DNA of 64,000 bases from Microbispora bryophytorum (lineage in GTDB: Bacteria > Actinomycetota > Actinomycetes > Streptosporangiales > Streptosporangiaceae). The notes below the pieces were generated by a model. The model had not been told where the DNA came from. It saw nothing but the letters and a program-made list of their open reading frames with translations, and made no database searches. The DNA is taken from contig NZ_VIRL01000018.1 of assembly GCF_006874465.1 (NCBI RefSeq), forward strand, positions 1-64,000, read 5' to 3'. The translations under genes and the position numbers were made by a program. Positions 19,018 through 32,073 of the stretch are shown here, in pieces (position 1 is the first letter of the stretch; each line of letters starts with the position of its first letter).

Positions 19018-19050
19018 GTTCCGCAGTGCGGTGGCCGGCGCCTCCAGCCG

Positions 19051-19140
19051 ATCAACTCCATGCCGGTCAACTCCATGCCGGTCAACTCCATGCCGGTCAA
19101 CTCCATGCCGGTCAACTCCATGCCGATCAACTCCACGGAG
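19051..19140. repeat. 15-bp tandem array, six units
   Basis: Unit GTCAACTCCATGCCG. Four exact copies (19066-19125) are flanked by a one-base variant (19051-19065) and a diverged last unit. The period is a multiple of three, so every frame stays open through it. No spacers, so it is not a CRISPR. Confidence 0.95.
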
Positions 19141-21263: not shown

Positions 21264-22355
21264 CTAGGTCCGGTCCGGCGCGCCGGGTGAAGGCGGTCGT
21301 CGCAGGCGGAGGCAGAAACAGGCCCCCTCGCCCTCGCGGGGCTCATACCAGGCGTCGCCGCCGTTGCCCAGGGCGAAGCTTCGGACGATCCACAGCCCCA
21401 AGCCCGTCCCCTCTGTCTCGCGGTCAACCTCCCGCGCACGGCTGAAGCGCTCGAACAACCGGGGCACGAAAGCCTCCGGCACACCTGGCCCACGGTCGCA
21501 CACCCGGAGAAGGATCCATTCCGGCTGCCCGGTCGCGGACACCTCGACGGGCGGACGCCCATAGGCGAACGCGTTCTCCAGGTAGTTGTCCACCATCGCA
21601 GAGAACTCCCTGCGATCGACCAGGGCCTCCAGATGAGGGCTGCAGGACACGTGCACCTGCTGCGATCGTGCGTCCAGCTCGCCGAGTCGTTCAAGGAGCA
21701 CTTCGAGCACGGGGACGCGTTCCACGCGGGCGGACGCGCCTTTCGCTTCGATGGTCGACGCGGTGAGGAGCTTGCGGACGAGCCCTTGGAGCCGGGCCGT
21801 CCGATCGGCGATGCGCTCGATGATCTCGGTTCTTCGCTCCTCGGCGAGCGCGATCAGGCGGTCACGTAGCACGTCCACCAGCACGCTGATGGTGGCCAGA
21901 GGATTGTGGAGCTCATGGGCTGCGACGGCGACCGCGACGTTCTGGCGTTCCAGGGCCGCCTCCAGCTCTTGTTCGACGTGCCTGCTCCGTGTGACGTCGC
22001 GGAGCGCGGCGACGTACAGGGGCTCACCTTCCAGGGTCGTGGCGGTGACCCGCATCTCGACGACCCGTCTGCCTCCGGCGGGCAGCATCAAGTCGATCTC
22101 GGTCGCCGCGCCCGCGGCGATGGGGAAGCCGAACGGTGTGCCGATCAGCTCCTCGGCCGAGCGGGCGAAGAGCTCCGCGGCAGCGGGGTTGCAGAGCCTG
22201 ATGATTCCTTCCTTGTCGACGGCGACGATCCCGTCCGCCGAAGCCGAAACGATGACCTGGCTGATATCGTCCCGGAATTCGACGTCGTTGGGCCGGCCTG
22301 ACTCGGAGCCTCCTATGGGGTTTCCGCCAGGCGAGGACCCGCCGCCGGCACTCAC
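21264..22355 (-). CDS. PAS sensor histidine kinase in the kai operon
   Basis: Soluble histidine kinase of 363 residues, no membrane helix. A PAS domain (about 30-140: GIVAVDKEGIIRLCNPAAAE) is followed by HisKA with H-box AAHELHNPLATIS (near 165), then HATPase_c with N-box DNYLENAFAYG, G1 DRGPGVP and G2 GTGLGLWI. The GTG start overlaps the kaiC TGA by four bases (GTGA), so it is coupled to kaiC. In cyanobacteria KaiC output goes through kinase SasA, whose sensor is KaiB-like. Here a PAS kinase occupies that position, so I infer that it reads KaiC state or shares its signal. The divergent NarL regulator is a candidate partner. Confidence 0.88.
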   Translation of the reverse strand: MSAGGGSSPGGNPIGGSESGRPNDVEFRDDISQVIVSASADGIVAVDKEGIIRLCNPAAAELFARSAEELIGTPFGFPIAAGAATEIDLMLPAGGRRVVEMRVTATTLEGEPLYVAALRDVTRSRHVEQELEAALERQNVAVAVAAHELHNPLATISVLVDVLRDRLIALAEERRTEIIERIADRTARLQGLVRKLLTASTIEAKGASARVERVPVLEVLLERLGELDARSQQVHVSCSPHLEALVDRREFSAMVDNYLENAFAYGRPPVEVSATGQPEWILLRVCDRGPGVPEAFVPRLFERFSRAREVDRETEGTGLGLWIVRSFALGNGGDAWYEPREGEGACFCLRLRRPPSPGAPDRT

Positions 22356-23878
22356 CCCGACGGACCCTCTGTCACTTCGGACTCGGGCGATTCCCACGCG
22401 CCGCCGGGACTGATCGCCTCAGTGAAGCCGTGGGGGGCGCTTGTCAGGGGCTCACCGATGTGCATTCCGGTGCGGTCGATCCTGAACTGGCGAATGCTGT
22501 GGTCATGGGCGGAGCCGCGCGCCTGGAGCACGGCGATGGCGCGCTGGATCTCGACGGGCCCTGTGACATACCGGAGCTGGATCCAGACGTCGGCAAGGGC
22601 GGCGACGTCGGAGGTGATCAGCGGCGCGTTCGCCGAATTGAACCGTCCGGCAGGTGTCCCCGTGAGAAGAGTGGTTATCTCGCGCTGTCGGAGAACCGCC
22701 GTCAGCGCGATGATGAAATCGAGTAGAGTCCGCGGCGCGGCCACGCGTTCGAGCGCGGACAACGTGTCGATGACGAGCCGGCCAGGCGCGAACTCCTCAA
22801 TGGCGTTCCTGAGCTGCAGAAAGTGGTCTTCTGGAGACATCACCTCCGCGTAGCCGCACATGACTCGGAGCAGACCCGCTGCCTGCATCGCCTTGAGATC
22901 CAGACCCCAGCTCGCGGCGCTGCGGAAGAGTTGCCCGGGGGTCCCGTCGAAGGTGCACAGCAGGCAGCGCTCACCCGCCTCGACGGCGGCGGCCGCGAAA
23001 CGCAGACTCGCCATTGTCTTGCCCGCGCCGGTGGGCCCGGTGATCAGGACGATCGCGTCCCGGTAGAAGCCGCCGCCGCACATTTCGTCCAACTCGGGAA
23101 TGCCGGACGAGACGCGGGCGAGTGACGCGTGGTCGGACGGCGTGAGGAACGCGAGGGGGACCACCACGATGCCGTCCCGTGGATCGATCGTGAACAGCCA
23201 TTCTCCCGTACGGTGCTGGGCGCCGCGGAACTTGACGATCTCAACCGTCCGGGTTCGCCGACCCTGCCGGAGCACGTTGCGCAGGATGATGACATTGTCG
23301 AGGACGAAAGGCTCGACCCCGTAGCGGGTCACACCGTCGTACTCTTCGGGACGCTCCGCGGTGAGCACCGAGGTGACTCCGAGCGCGTTGAGGGCGGAGG
23401 CGATCCGGAACAGCTCATGGCGGACGATGCCGCTGTCGGTGAACTGGGTGAAGATCGCGTTGAGCGAGTCGAGCGCGACACGGCGAGCCCCGGTCTGGCG
23501 GACCGCGTGCTCGATGCGCGCCACCAGGGCGCCGAAGTCGTAGGCGCCGACGGCGGGCGTGTCCTCGCCGATACTCGCCGAGGCTTCGACGAAGGCCCAC
23601 TTTCCTTCGTCCTCCCACAGCTGTACGGGGAAGCCCAGCGAGGCTGCGTTACGGCGGATGTCGGTGGATGTCTCCTCGAAGGTGACAAACACCCCAGACT
23701 CGTTGAAGCGCATGATTCCGCGGGAGAGGAACTCAACGGCGAACAAGGTCTTACCGCTGCCGGTCGTGCCGCTCACCAGTGTGGATCGGCCCGCGGGCAA
23801 TCCGCCCAGGGTTACGTGCTCGAAGCCGCTGATCCCTGTGGGGATCCGCTCGATGGTGTTGCTGCCAGTCATCGTCAC
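22352..23878 (-). CDS. kaiC: KaiC-like double-domain ATPase
   Basis: RecA-fold clock-type ATPase, 508 residues, close to the usual 519. CI (about 1-240) has Walker A GTTGSGKT and the catalytic pair in VTFEET. CII (about 245-490) has Walker A GPTGAGKT. In CII the region equivalent to the Glu318-Glu319 pair of Synechococcus KaiC reads CTFDGTP, and that around Ser431-Thr432 reads DVAALADV, so both phospho-acceptors appear to be Ala. It should therefore hydrolyse ATP, mainly through CI, without the autophosphorylation cycle (inference). The ATG overlaps the kaiB stop (ATGA) and its stop overlaps the kinase start. Confidence 0.93.
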   Translation of the reverse strand: MTMTGSNTIERIPTGISGFEHVTLGGLPAGRSTLVSGTTGSGKTLFAVEFLSRGIMRFNESGVFVTFEETSTDIRRNAASLGFPVQLWEDEGKWAFVEASASIGEDTPAVGAYDFGALVARIEHAVRQTGARRVALDSLNAIFTQFTDSGIVRHELFRIASALNALGVTSVLTAERPEEYDGVTRYGVEPFVLDNVIILRNVLRQGRRTRTVEIVKFRGAQHRTGEWLFTIDPRDGIVVVPLAFLTPSDHASLARVSSGIPELDEMCGGGFYRDAIVLITGPTGAGKTMASLRFAAAAVEAGERCLLCTFDGTPGQLFRSAASWGLDLKAMQAAGLLRVMCGYAEVMSPEDHFLQLRNAIEEFAPGRLVIDTLSALERVAAPRTLLDFIIALTAVLRQREITTLLTGTPAGRFNSANAPLITSDVAALADVWIQLRYVTGPVEIQRAIAVLQARGSAHDHSIRQFRIDRTGMHIGEPLTSAPHGFTEAISPGGAWESPESEVTEGPSG

Positions 23879-24174
23879 TGCCCTTCCATGGGCGATGCGT
23901 CCGCGGCTGGGAGGCCCAGAGCGATGGCGGCGCGGCCGTGATCGGACAGATCCCCGATCACCCGCCGCTGTGGTGGCGGCGTGAGCCTGACGACGGTGGG
24001 GGTGGCCAGGATCCGTCCCTCCTCGGCCAGTTCTGGCCGCGCGACGGTGTCGACGACCTCGACCTCGTACATGCCGGAGAGGTGAGCGTCACACAGGAAC
24101 CGCAGGTTCACCTCCGCGGCGTGGGACCGCTCCGAGTTCCCAGCCACGTACAGCCTGAATGAGTAAGTGGTCAC
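23875..24174 (-). CDS. kaiB: KaiB-like protein
   Basis: About 99 residues, a thioredoxin-like KaiB-family protein. Family signatures: FRLYVAGNSERS near the start, PELAEEGRILATPTVVRL in the middle and PPPQRRVIGDLS near the end. In clocks KaiB binds the CI ring of KaiC. The start is uncertain: GTG 24174 (GGAG 12 bases upstream) or TTG 24192. It overlaps kaiC by four bases, so the two are made together. No kaiA is present, as in most non-cyanobacterial kai loci. Confidence 0.92.
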   Translation of the reverse strand: MTTYSFRLYVAGNSERSHAAEVNLRFLCDAHLSGMYEVEVVDTVARPELAEEGRILATPTVVRLTPPPQRRVIGDLSDHGRAAIALGLPAADASPMEGQ

Positions 24175-24650
24175 GTCAGGAACCGTCTCCAACGTTCGCA
24201 GGGCCCCGAGCTGGGGCCTTGCGGTCTACTGCTCTTCGTACCCCGAAGACGGGCAGGGACGAGCATCGGAGGAGAAGACGGCGCGCGTGGCGGATGGAGG
24301 TGTCCTCCCCACCGCTTTGCGTACGCATCAGGCATTGCCGCCCCTCGCATGGCGCCGATGCAGGTCGATCTGTTTGTGTATCACCGTGCACGCGGGGTAG
24401 CGTCATGATGAGTTCACAGGGGCAGGCCACAGTCCATAAGGGCAGGCCACAGGGTCTTCGGCCCGCTTTCGCCAGGGGGGCGCGCCCCCATCGGCCGGCT
24501 CCGAAGCAAACCTTTCTGGTCAAGCTGTGCCCAACCCGGGAGACGGGCAGAGCGGGCCCCGGCCGACCGGCGTACGGCGGCGAAACCGCTCATGAAGTGA
24601 GCAGCCATGAGCCGAGCAGTGGACAAGGCCACGGCGGGCAGGAGCATCCT
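24175..24650. other. Divergent kai/response-regulator promoter region
   Basis: About 475 bases between kaiB and the response regulator. The only structure I can point to is a 13-bp direct repeat (GGGCAGGCCACAG at 24420-24432 and 24440-24452) with a 20-bp period, about two helical turns, as expected for a dimeric regulator. No gene is supported. Confidence 0.45.
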
Positions 24651-25310
24651 GTGATCCGAGTTCTCGTGGTCGAGGATCAGCGGGCGCTCGCTGGCGCTCT
24701 TGAGATCGCGATCGACGCCCAGCCCGACCTGATTTGTGTGGGCGCCGTGGGAACGGTCGAGAACGCCGTCTCGCTCACCACGATGCGGAGTCCCGACGTC
24801 GTGCTCATGGACATTCATCTTCCGGACGTCGACGGAATCGAGGGTACGAGGCGGATCAAAGCGTCTCACCCGGATGTCCGCGTCCTCATCTTGACCGGTG
24901 ATGCCAGCCCAGACCTGTTCGCGGCCGCAGCGGCGGCAGGGGCTTCCGGATTTCTCGCAAAAGACAGTAAGTTTCCGGACATTCTCAAAGTGATCCGTGC
25001 CCCGGTCGACAAGAACATCCTTATGGTGGAGGGCGAACCACTCAAAGCGCTCCTCCAGGACCCCAGCGCACCGCCGCACGGTGGGCGCGAGAGCTGGGCG
25101 GGGCTCACCGCGCGCGAGCTGGAAGTCCTGAATCTGATGGGCGAAGGGCTCGATCCCCGTGCGATCGCTGGGCGACTCGTCGTGAGCCTTCACACCGCTC
25201 GAGGCCATGTCAAGAACGTCATGATGAAGCTGGGCGCGCACAGCCAGCTCGAAGCGGTTGTCGTGGCGACTCGGACGGGGCTTCTGCCAGGACTGCGAAA
25301 ACCTGGTTGA
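24651..25310 (+). CDS. NarL/LuxR-family response regulator
   Basis: 219-residue two-component regulator. Receiver domain about 1-120: acidic pocket VVEDQ, phospho-acceptor Asp in VVLMDIHLP (near 53), Thr in ILTGD and Lys in FLAKDS. The C-terminal LuxR HTH (about 150-215) has LTARELEVLNLMGEG and SLHTARGHVKNVMMKLG. GTG at 24651 has AGGAG upstream. It is divergent from kaiB-kaiC-kinase, and with no closer cognate kinase it is a good candidate output for that operon. The Asp-Pro after GEGLDPRAIA is a slight departure from the usual GxSNKEIA. Confidence 0.9.
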   Translation: MIRVLVVEDQRALAGALEIAIDAQPDLICVGAVGTVENAVSLTTMRSPDVVLMDIHLPDVDGIEGTRRIKASHPDVRVLILTGDASPDLFAAAAAAGASGFLAKDSKFPDILKVIRAPVDKNILMVEGEPLKALLQDPSAPPHGGRESWAGLTARELEVLNLMGEGLDPRAIAGRLVVSLHTARGHVKNVMMKLGAHSQLEAVVVATRTGLLPGLRKPG

Positions 25311-25712: not shown

Positions 25713-26576
25713 ATGGACATGAGACACGTTGAGGCTCTGTCCGGCTGTATCGACGGTATTGACATCCCCGCATCTGTCACAGACCTTGACGCGGAGGTTT
25801 CCAATCCCCTCGGTGAAGACGAGATCGCCCGGACCACCAGGGCCGTGATCTGCACGTTGAAACGGCTCAACAAGGCACTGCAGCAACAGCGGCGGTTCGC
25901 CTCCGACACGTCGCATGAGTTGCGTAACCCCCTCGCTGGGCTGCGCGCAGAGCTTGAGCAGGCTCAGTTGCATCCAGATGATGTTCATCTGCACGAGACC
26001 CTCCAACGTGCGCTGAGCGCCGTCGACCGGCTCGAGGCGATCATCGGCGATCTGCTTCTGCTGTCCCGTGTCGAGAGCGTTGTGCCGAACGGGCGGGCGC
26101 CGGTCGACCTGGCACAACTGGTCAAGGCGGAAGTCTCCCGCCGGGCGGACCGGATTCCGGTCCAGTTGTGGCTCGTCCCCGGGGTGTACGTCAAGATCGT
26201 CGGCATCCAGATCGGCCGGGCACTCACAAATCTGCTGGACAATGCCCAACGGCACGCCGAACGGGTCGTACGGGTCGAGGTCAGCCATAACGGGCGCATC
26301 GCGGAACTGGCGGTCTCCGACGACGGCGAAGGGATCGCCGAGGCCGACATCGAGCGGATCTTCGAACGATTCACCAGGCTGGACGCAGGCCGCCGCCGCG
26401 ACCGCAGCGGCACGGGCCTCGGGTTGTCGATCGCCCGTGAAATCGCTCAGGCGCATGACGGGACCCTCCATGCCGGAGACTCTCCCATTGGCGGTGCACG
26501 CTTCACGCTGCGGCTTCCCCTCGCCGCCCTTCGGGACGCCGATGGCGTCAAGAGGCCTGACCAACGGCTGCACTGA
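25713..26576 (+). CDS. Histidine kinase without sensor or membrane segment
   Basis: 287-residue kinase. A short N-terminal stretch leads straight into HisKA with H-box RRFASDTSHELRNPLAGLRAE (near 70), then HATPase_c: N-box RALTNLLDNAQRHAE, G1 DDGEGI, G2 GTGLGLSI. There is no transmembrane helix or HAMP, so it is cytoplasmic and must sense through a partner. GGAAGGAAG precedes the ATG. No response regulator is directly downstream; the NarL regulator 400 bases upstream on the same strand is the nearest. The decayed fragment at 19141 resembles it. Confidence 0.88.
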   Translation: MDMRHVEALSGCIDGIDIPASVTDLDAEVSNPLGEDEIARTTRAVICTLKRLNKALQQQRRFASDTSHELRNPLAGLRAELEQAQLHPDDVHLHETLQRALSAVDRLEAIIGDLLLLSRVESVVPNGRAPVDLAQLVKAEVSRRADRIPVQLWLVPGVYVKIVGIQIGRALTNLLDNAQRHAERVVRVEVSHNGRIAELAVSDDGEGIAEADIERIFERFTRLDAGRRRDRSGTGLGLSIAREIAQAHDGTLHAGDSPIGGARFTLRLPLAALRDADGVKRPDQRLH

Positions 26577-31287: not shown

Positions 31288-32073
31288 ATGAACGTCCAGG
31301 AGGACAACGTTTCTGCAGGTCCCTTCTGGGAGGCAGCCGTGACGCGGGAACGCCAACTGACCGACGCGTTCGCCGAGTTGACGGACACCCTTGTCGGAGA
31401 CTTCGACGTCGTCGATTTGTTACACCAGCTCACCCTGCGCTGCGTGCGACTGCTGGACGTCGATGCGGCGGGGCTGCTGCTGGTCGACCGGCAAGGGCGG
31501 CTGCGTCCGATGGCGGCCTCCACTGAGCAGGCCCGCATGCTGAAACTCCTCCAGCTCCAGGATGTGGACGGCCCCGGCCTGGATTGTTACCGCACCGGCG
31601 AGCCGGTGACCAGTGCCGATCTGATCGCCGGGGGAGGGCGCTGGCCCCGTTTCGCCGCAGCGGCGCAGCTCGCCGGCTTCGTCGCGGTCCAGGCACTGCC
31701 GATGCGCCACCGCGACAGGGTCATCGGCGCACTCACCCTGCTACGGACGGCAGCCGGCCGATTGACCACGGATGAGCTGCACATCGGGCAGGCACTGGCC
31801 AATGTCGCCACCATCAGCATCCTGCACCAGCGCGGGCTGGAGCGATACGAGGCAGCCACAGAGCAGCTACAGACCGCGCTCAACAGTCGCACGCTCACCG
31901 AGCAGGCCACGGGGATGCTGGCCGAGCGCCATCACAGCGACATGGACGACGCCTTCGACTCCTTGTGCGTCTACGCGCGCACCCGCGGCCTGCGCCTGTC
32001 GGAGGCGGCGCATGCCATCGTCCACAGCGAACACGACATCGATCAACCTCCGGCCGACGATCACAGCCGATGA
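31288..32073 (+). CDS. GAF-ANTAR domain regulator
   Basis: 261-residue protein. A GAF sensor domain (about 40-180: LRCVRLLDVDAAGLLLVDRQG) is followed by an ANTAR RNA-binding domain (about 195-250: ALNSRTLTEQATGMLAERHH). ANTAR proteins bind paired hairpins in nascent RNA and prevent termination. The ligand is unknown. ATG 31288 is used; a GTG at 31339 is an alternative. It may be cotranscribed with the LysR gene. Confidence 0.88.
   Translation: MNVQEDNVSAGPFWEAAVTRERQLTDAFAELTDTLVGDFDVVDLLHQLTLRCVRLLDVDAAGLLLVDRQGRLRPMAASTEQARMLKLLQLQDVDGPGLDCYRTGEPVTSADLIAGGGRWPRFAAAAQLAGFVAVQALPMRHRDRVIGALTLLRTAAGRLTTDELHIGQALANVATISILHQRGLERYEAATEQLQTALNSRTLTEQATGMLAERHHSDMDDAFDSLCVYARTRGLRLSEAAHAIVHSEHDIDQPPADDHSR

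Follow-up and report, generated by a model that had tools for sequence, protein, structure and literature searches.

An actinomycete kaiB-kaiC module with an altered KaiC phosphorylation domain, probably used as a switch in signalling and not as a daily clock

The locus

A Kai gene cluster is described here in a stretch of 64,000 nucleotides of the soil actinomycete Microbispora bryophytorum (contig NZ_VIRL01000018.1, positions 1 to 64,000; hereafter the window, meaning the whole stretch of DNA that was analysed), whose host genome is 7.85 Mb in size. Four genes are present: kaiB, kaiC and the gene of a PAS-HisKA-HATPase kinase (HK1) lie on the minus strand, and a gene encoding a NarL-type regulator diverges from them on the plus strand. 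The parts of KaiC involved in self-phosphorylation are altered in this lineage, whose Kai system is therefore probably a switch used in signalling and not a means of keeping daily time.

23875..24174, minus strand: kaiB, 99 amino acids, GTG start; Pfam KaiB (PF07689) 80.1 bits, cut-off 27
22352..23872, minus strand: kaiC, 506 amino acids, two RecA-like domains; Pfam KaiC (PF06745) 345.3 bits, cut-off 26.6, in 2 stretches
21264..22355, minus strand: HK1, PAS-HisKA-HATPase kinase, 363 amino acids, GTG start; phospho-acceptor His147
24651..25310, plus strand: NarL/LuxR-type response regulator; Pfam Response_reg 80 bits (cut-off 30.2), GerE 48.8 (23.5)

In HK1, Pfam recognises HisKA at 44 bits (cut-off 26.9), HATPase_c at 70.9 (26.4) and PAS at 38.2 (22.6). 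An earlier reading of the same DNA made from its letters (hereafter the sequence-only reading) had proposed a kaiB-kaiC-PAS kinase operon with a divergent NarL regulator; these genes are there, and every Pfam score, those of KaiB, KaiC and HisKA included, exceeds its cut-off. Both Kai products also match their counterparts in the PDB, to 9.9e-21 for KaiB and to 3.1e-152 for KaiC. The absence of kaiA, also proposed earlier, is borne out by a search that found no KaiA match in the genome of M. bryophytorum and that did recover KaiA in a Synechococcus control.

The minus-strand genes are tightly packed. The kaiC stop and the HK1 start share a GTGA overlap, as the sequence-only reading had it, whereas the ATGA fusion that it placed between kaiB and kaiC gives way to a small gap, the kaiB TGA lying 2 bases ahead of the best-placed kaiC ATG (23872, with GGAAGGG upstream). 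An alternative kaiC start, GTG at 23878, would make this junction a GTGA overlap as well, and the junction is similar across the 4 relatives that were read. Genes that overlap or nearly touch in this way point to translational coupling of kaiB, kaiC and HK1, rather than the fixed stoichiometry that had been deduced from their fusion. For the regulator, the start is most likely GTG 24651; a longer open reading frame from 24159 crosses the intergenic region.

A KaiC clade with a remodelled CII domain

Residues of KaiC were numbered by alignment to the numbered PDB chain 7dye. On this basis, both the catalytic pair and the phosphosites of the second domain (CII) are replaced in the window KaiC:

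22943..22948, minus strand: CII catalytic pair Asp309-Gly310, replacing E318-E319 (alignment to 7dye)
22598..22603, minus strand: CII phosphosites Ala424-Ala425, replacing S431-T432 (alignment to 7dye)

The equivalent of K457, a residue that contacts the gamma-phosphate, is Gln. The first domain (CI) has EE at E77/E78 and a Walker A motif, GTTGSGKT. The protein scores above the cut-off of the family model NF006799 (557.4 bits, cut-off 408) and below that of the circadian equivalog TIGR02655 (458.4, cut-off 546.25).

Some of the related loci were collected with a scan for two CI peptide patterns (GKTLFAVE and GVFVTFEE), in which the 80 best were retained out of at least 559 confirmed candidates; the carriers among these include Microbispora, Streptosporangium, Sphaerisporangium, Acrocarpospora, Saccharopolyspora, Kutzneria, Actinopolymorpha and Streptomyces. 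The full set of loci with the module holds 29 non-redundant ones, duplicates having been dropped (L136, identical to L048; L138 to L049; L179 to L059; G005 to L047). The KaiCs of the module form one clade, with a support of 1.0 for 25 of 117 rows, 1.0 for 29 of 94 rows, and 100/100 in a 19-row tree that leaves out L011-L014 and whose bootstrap is not yet settled. In the 117-row tree, its nearest relatives are other Actinomycetota KaiCs, L063 and L082 (0.63) and L166 (0.99), all with E318-E319; L166 is already devoid of T432.

Across the clade, the replacements are specific. Position 318 is Asp in 28/29 members and Glu in 65/65 outgroup KaiCs; position 457 is Gln in 27/29 and Lys in 1/29, against Lys in 65/65; and position 393 is Leu in 27/29 and Arg in none of the 29, against Arg in 65/65. 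Glu at 319 is kept by 23/29 clade members (65/65 in the outgroup), Thr at 426 by 1/29 (65/65) and Ser at 431 by 2/29 (64/65), while position 432, Thr in 63/65 outgroup sequences, is never Thr and is Ser in 16/29. Altogether, 13/29 clade KaiCs, including that of the window, have no Ser, Thr or Tyr at 431 or 432. In CI, Glu at 78 and both Walker lysines are found in 29/29, and position 77 is Glu in 25 and Asp in 4. L061 (Saccharopolyspora rhizosphaerae) is the sole clade KaiC with Glu318, although Asp is found in L050 and L051, to which it is related; this would be either a reversion or a separate change.

Since CI conservation in the rows found by pattern is partly by construction, the pattern columns were left out when the two domains were compared. 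Outgroup-conserved columns were changed in the clade at 6/85 positions in CI and 32/119 in CII (p 2.4e-4), and a repeat on the 14 clade members found without patterns gave 6/85 and 30/119 (p 7.1e-4), both Fisher tests counting related sequences as independent.

Elsewhere in the Actinomycetota, E318 was kept in 25 of 27 further KaiCs read from 31 loci. The other two, L145 and L147 (genomes G665 and G653), lost it separately: they form a distinct pair with Asp at 318, Gly at 457 and no phosphosites, and no kaiB was found within the fetched ~1.5 kb on either side. Another set of Actinomycetota KaiCs (L013, L014, L148, L149, L150, L154, L158 and L162), most of them of ~550 amino acids or more, is followed by two consecutive kaiB-like genes.

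KaiB and its predicted fold

KaiB is retained in all of the 25 clade loci tallied. The window KaiB scores 80 with the circadian equivalog TIGR02654, below its cut-off of 145.3, and differs from the common outgroup form at two positions, Ala85 and Gly87, the counterparts of the known fold-switch residues G89 and D91 in Thermosynechococcus KaiB.

23914-23922, minus strand: kaiB codons of the fold-switch positions Ala85 and Gly87

In the clade, position 89 is Ala in 21 KaiBs, Phe in 2 and Leu in 2, and position 91 is Gly in 25/25; the commonest outgroup combination is Gly-Asp (35/65). A laboratory double mutant, G89A/D91R, moves KaiB to its KaiC-binding fold (PMC8059507), and the natural residue at 91 is Gly where that mutant has Arg. 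With 16 clade sequences as input, AlphaFold2 predicted the window KaiB in the fold-switched, thioredoxin-like order beta-alpha-beta-alpha-beta-beta-alpha (pLDDT 85.4). The solved structures nearest to this model are a fold-switch-stabilised KaiB and, closest of all, Legionella pneumophila KaiB (Lpp1115, 4kun; 41% identity over the aligned region), which was crystallised in the fold-switched state (PMC10808063). A control alignment of the same depth, its first sequence a cyanobacterial KaiB, yielded the ground-state order (pLDDT 67.5), with ground-state crystals at ranks 1-17 of its nearest structures.

A PAS protein with interchangeable outputs

The phospho-acceptor His of HK1 is kept in 22/22 aligned kinases, and the receiver Asp appears conserved, from a by-eye reading of the alignment, in 14 aligned regulators. 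In five Streptomyces loci (L053, L054 and L176-L178), the gene behind kaiC encodes the same PAS joined to a SpoIIE-type phosphatase domain, which replaces the kinase. The PAS of L053 is 64% identical to that of HK1 over 109 residues, and that of L054 52% over 130; their SpoIIE-type domains score 145.2 and 151.7 bits, respectively, L176-L178 being assigned by similarity. The KaiCs of these five loci group together (support 0.895 in the 94-row tree). No divergent regulator was found in the 4/4 PAS-SpoIIE loci with visible upstream DNA. The regulator was found in 16/23 kinase-type loci (L059 being only partly visible in this tally) and in 0/4 phosphatase-type ones, a difference that the p of 0.019 overstates, because the four are one clade. 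Since the PAS keeps its place after kaiC whichever output domain it is joined to, the PAS rather than the kinase appears from these gene arrangements to be the fixed partner of kaiBC, the regulator travelling with the kinase.

This organisation bears on a possible passenger status of kaiB and kaiC, with the kinase-regulator pair as an ordinary two-component system that happens to adjoin them. Outside cyanobacteria, genes for histidine kinases or GGDEF/EAL proteins indeed often follow kaiC or kaiB (PMC3164672). However, the PAS persists where the kinase does not, and no regulator turned up in the kinase-less loci with visible upstream DNA, with the reservation on the tally made above. We regard mere adjacency as quite unlikely.

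SasA binds KaiC through a KaiB-like domain. HK1 was considered as a SasA homologue and rejected: it gives no KaiB match, and the only such match in the genome is kaiB itself. The sequence-only reading, which saw a PAS kinase in the place of SasA, is not supported on this point. SasA homologues without a KaiB-like domain have been described outside cyanobacteria (PMC5520375).

24175..24650, no strand: intergenic region common to kaiB and the regulator

Within this region, a TTGTGT (24374-24379) followed after 18 bases by TAGCGT (24398-24403) points towards the regulator, and its TAnC.TC columns are conserved in 10/10 aligned intergenic regions. A scan of the region for sigma-70 consensus and terminators found nothing, so that a role for this candidate promoter is only a guess. 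In a repeat search, two direct repeats were found, both short and in two copies, and inverted repeats were absent. At 24411-24450 lies a 20-base tandem duplication, its copies 85% alike, which is present in the window and not in 3 aligned Microbispora relatives.

Distribution and genomic neighbourhood

The Kai block recurs in other actinomycete genomes, and its occurrence there is more than chance. Its distribution is patchy: the module was found in 4/15 genomes of its own genus, 13/200 of the order (E 1e-100) and 6/392 of the genus of Streptomyces abyssalis. Among 394 genomes sampled from the class, this type of KaiC occurred only in the window's genome and in G001, the other 10 matches at E 1e-60 being 36-47% identical. 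A plasmid search returned KaiCs in 67 records, all less than 60% identical, with no plasmid-borne relative of the clade among them.

25713..26576, plus strand: HK2, a second histidine kinase beyond the regulator; Pfam HisKA and HATPase_c

HK2, in which Pfam recognises no sensor domain, adjoins the module in 10/29 loci, those of Microbispora and its nearest relatives, which form one branch of the 94-row KaiC tree. The four genes first proposed are thus part of a larger cluster, whose conserved fifth gene had been missed. When 13 neighbour proteins were sought in 20-kb stretches of G001 and G023, only HK2 was found, and G009 has several of the others; the flanking genes are common to the window and G009, and not to G001 or G023. 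The cold-shock, STAS and desaturase genes among which the sequence-only reading placed the module are present in the window, but they were rejected as members, none of them having been found beside the module in G001 or G023. A 15-base tandem repeat of 6.3 copies (19042-19135) lies between the STAS and cold-shock genes. GAF-ANTAR genes are common in actinomycetes; one is found at 31288-32073, and in 7/25 loci a relative of that gene occurs close to the module.

Comparison with known Kai systems

Like the KaiABC/SasA-RpaA system of Synechococcus elongatus, the cluster combines KaiB and KaiC with a histidine kinase and a response regulator. It differs from that system by the lack of a KaiA match, by the PAS of HK1 where SasA has a KaiB-like domain, and by the replaced CII kinase residues and phosphosites. 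RpaA is of OmpR type, unlike the NarL/LuxR-type regulator found here.

With the hourglass of Rhodobacter (Cereibacter) sphaeroides, the cluster has in common a KaiB and a KaiC without KaiA. That KaiC autophosphorylates at S413/S414 and bears a long C-terminal coiled-coil, whereas the window KaiC has no acceptors and a short tail, with ~30 residues after CII in a chain of 506 amino acids compared with 568 in the R. sphaeroides type. Of the hourglass traits, the two CII serines are absent from it, as is, judging from the length of its tail, the coiled-coil. Among plasmid KaiCs of the R. sphaeroides type, the nearest shares 38% identity with it.

A kaiB-kaiC pair with a kinase directly downstream also recalls contexts described with the Ramlibacter genome; that survey reports the arrangement as frequent outside cyanobacteria, and phosphorylable residues in nearly all KaiCs linked to kaiB (PMC3164672). 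Unlike that group, the present kaiB-linked clade has lost these residues in part or whole. In myxobacteria, 50 KaiC homologues without both phosphosites have been reported, and few myxobacteria have kaiB (PMC11832031); here, kaiB is retained and has changed in step. We recognised no description of kaiBC from Streptomyces, Microbispora or related actinomycetes in the titles and abstract openings of the open-licence literature, many subscription journals falling outside it, and the excerpts of PMC10173096 and PMC8874327 contain nothing on actinomycete kaiBC.

A probable signalling switch rather than a clock

We think it likely, at somewhat better than even odds, that these genes encode a KaiB-KaiC signalling module whose KaiC has given up the CII phosphorylation cycle and acts as a switch gated by the CI ATPase, signalling via a dedicated PAS protein. 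In such a module, KaiC would form an ATP-dependent double ring, and CI, whose residues are in place, would hydrolyse ATP. By analogy with R. sphaeroides, where KaiB binding depends on the post-hydrolysis state of CI and the effect of phosphorylation is marginal (PMC10076222), the ADP-bound state of CI would recruit KaiB. As KaiB is predicted to be already largely in its KaiC-binding fold, the slow refolding step would be reduced. CII would bind nucleotide and serve as a structural or allosteric ring; in the window KaiC, which has no acceptor, it would carry no phosphoserine or phosphothreonine mark. Assembly of KaiB with KaiC would be set by the ATP/ADP state, and perhaps by a PAS ligand. The PAS of the co-encoded, soluble HK1 may read this assembly, as gene order and the output swap suggest, and HK1 would phosphorylate the divergent regulator; in the Streptomyces branch, the same PAS would drive the SpoIIE-type phosphatase. 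A more specific version is tentative, and we would put it somewhat below an even chance: both known delay parts, the CII phosphoswitch and slow KaiB refolding, would have been removed while CI, KaiB and the PAS reader were kept, leaving a fast ATP/ADP energy-charge sensor ring with a plug-in output, namely kinase and NarL regulator in most lineages and, in a single branch of Streptomyces, partner switching by a SpoIIE-type phosphatase.

Several observations weigh against this interpretation. The S. elongatus KaiC-AA protein remains in a non-KaiB-binding state (PMC5007536), which argues against KaiB binding here unless this is gated as in R. sphaeroides. At least one of positions 431 and 432 retains an acceptor in 16/29 clade members, and both do in 3/29 (L050, L054 and L178), so that phosphorylation at a single site may occur beyond the branch to which the window KaiC belongs; Asp at 318 could retain weak catalysis, and L061 keeps Glu there. 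As regards KaiB, the Ala-Gly pair also occurs in 6/65 outgroup KaiBs adjoining a phospho-competent KaiC, the control model is weak at its pLDDT of 67.5, and AlphaFold2 predictions for fold switchers, on which doubts have been published (PMC11344769, PMC10836070), may reflect training memory (PMC11344769). Finally, the argument for a contact between the PAS and the Kai proteins is one of gene order, and in L058, which has kaiBC, no such PAS gene was found.

Some of these points could also fit a timer hidden in the module, in which ATP hydrolysis by CI, possibly with single-site phosphorylation at 432 in some species, would form a slow hourglass read by HK1. The CI residues examined are intact, Ser stands at 432 in 16/29 clade members, and R. 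sphaeroides KaiBC provides the precedent of an hourglass without KaiA (PMC10076222). Yet 13 clade KaiCs, that of the window among them, offer no acceptor at either site, K457 has become Gln in 27/29, and a KaiB already switched, as predicted, would leave little delay. We consider such a timer unlikely.

A decaying CII, with the module a relic on its way out and kept in few genomes, would agree with the patchy presence described above (4/15 genomes of the own genus, 6/392 of that of S. abyssalis) and with a CII more divergent than CI. Against this, omega within Microbispora is 0.35-0.44 for CII and 0.17-0.31 for CI. Omega values are below 0.5 for CII and all five genes, the C-terminal tail of kaiC alone reaching 0.69-1.42; gene order is kept, and the same residues recur (Asp318 in 28/29, Gln457 and Leu393 in 27/29 each). 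Constraint together with specific replacements makes the alteration of CII look like a changed role rather than decay, and the relic reading, already disfavoured, is improbable. A standard phosphorylation cycle displaced to other CII residues, for which Ser/Thr near the interface such as T420 and S421 of the window KaiC might be invoked, is extremely improbable, as the general base and K457 are both replaced.

In its broader terms, the sequence-only reading is supported: this is a self-contained Kai signalling module outside the cyanobacteria, without KaiA and with a synteny conserved in other actinomycetes. To its suggestion of a function other than time, the altered CII phosphoswitch now adds a concrete reason. 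Stress, redox or light, which it considered as inputs, are conjectural, and the stress-type neighbours were not found next to the module in G001 or G023. The changes in CII and KaiB and the output swap of relatives had, like HK2, escaped it.

What is new is a kaiB-linked clade in which CII and KaiB have changed in coordination and the PAS output is interchangeable. The clock has been dissected in the laboratory with mutants such as KaiC-AA and fold-locked KaiB; here, a whole clade carries comparable changes in genes under selection, and nature itself provides an experiment on what turns a Kai ring into a clock. The PAS reader, with its two interchangeable outputs, offers a handle on Kai signalling without SasA. 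If KaiB still binds this KaiC by the nucleotide state of CI alone, Kai-ring signalling would be separable from timekeeping.

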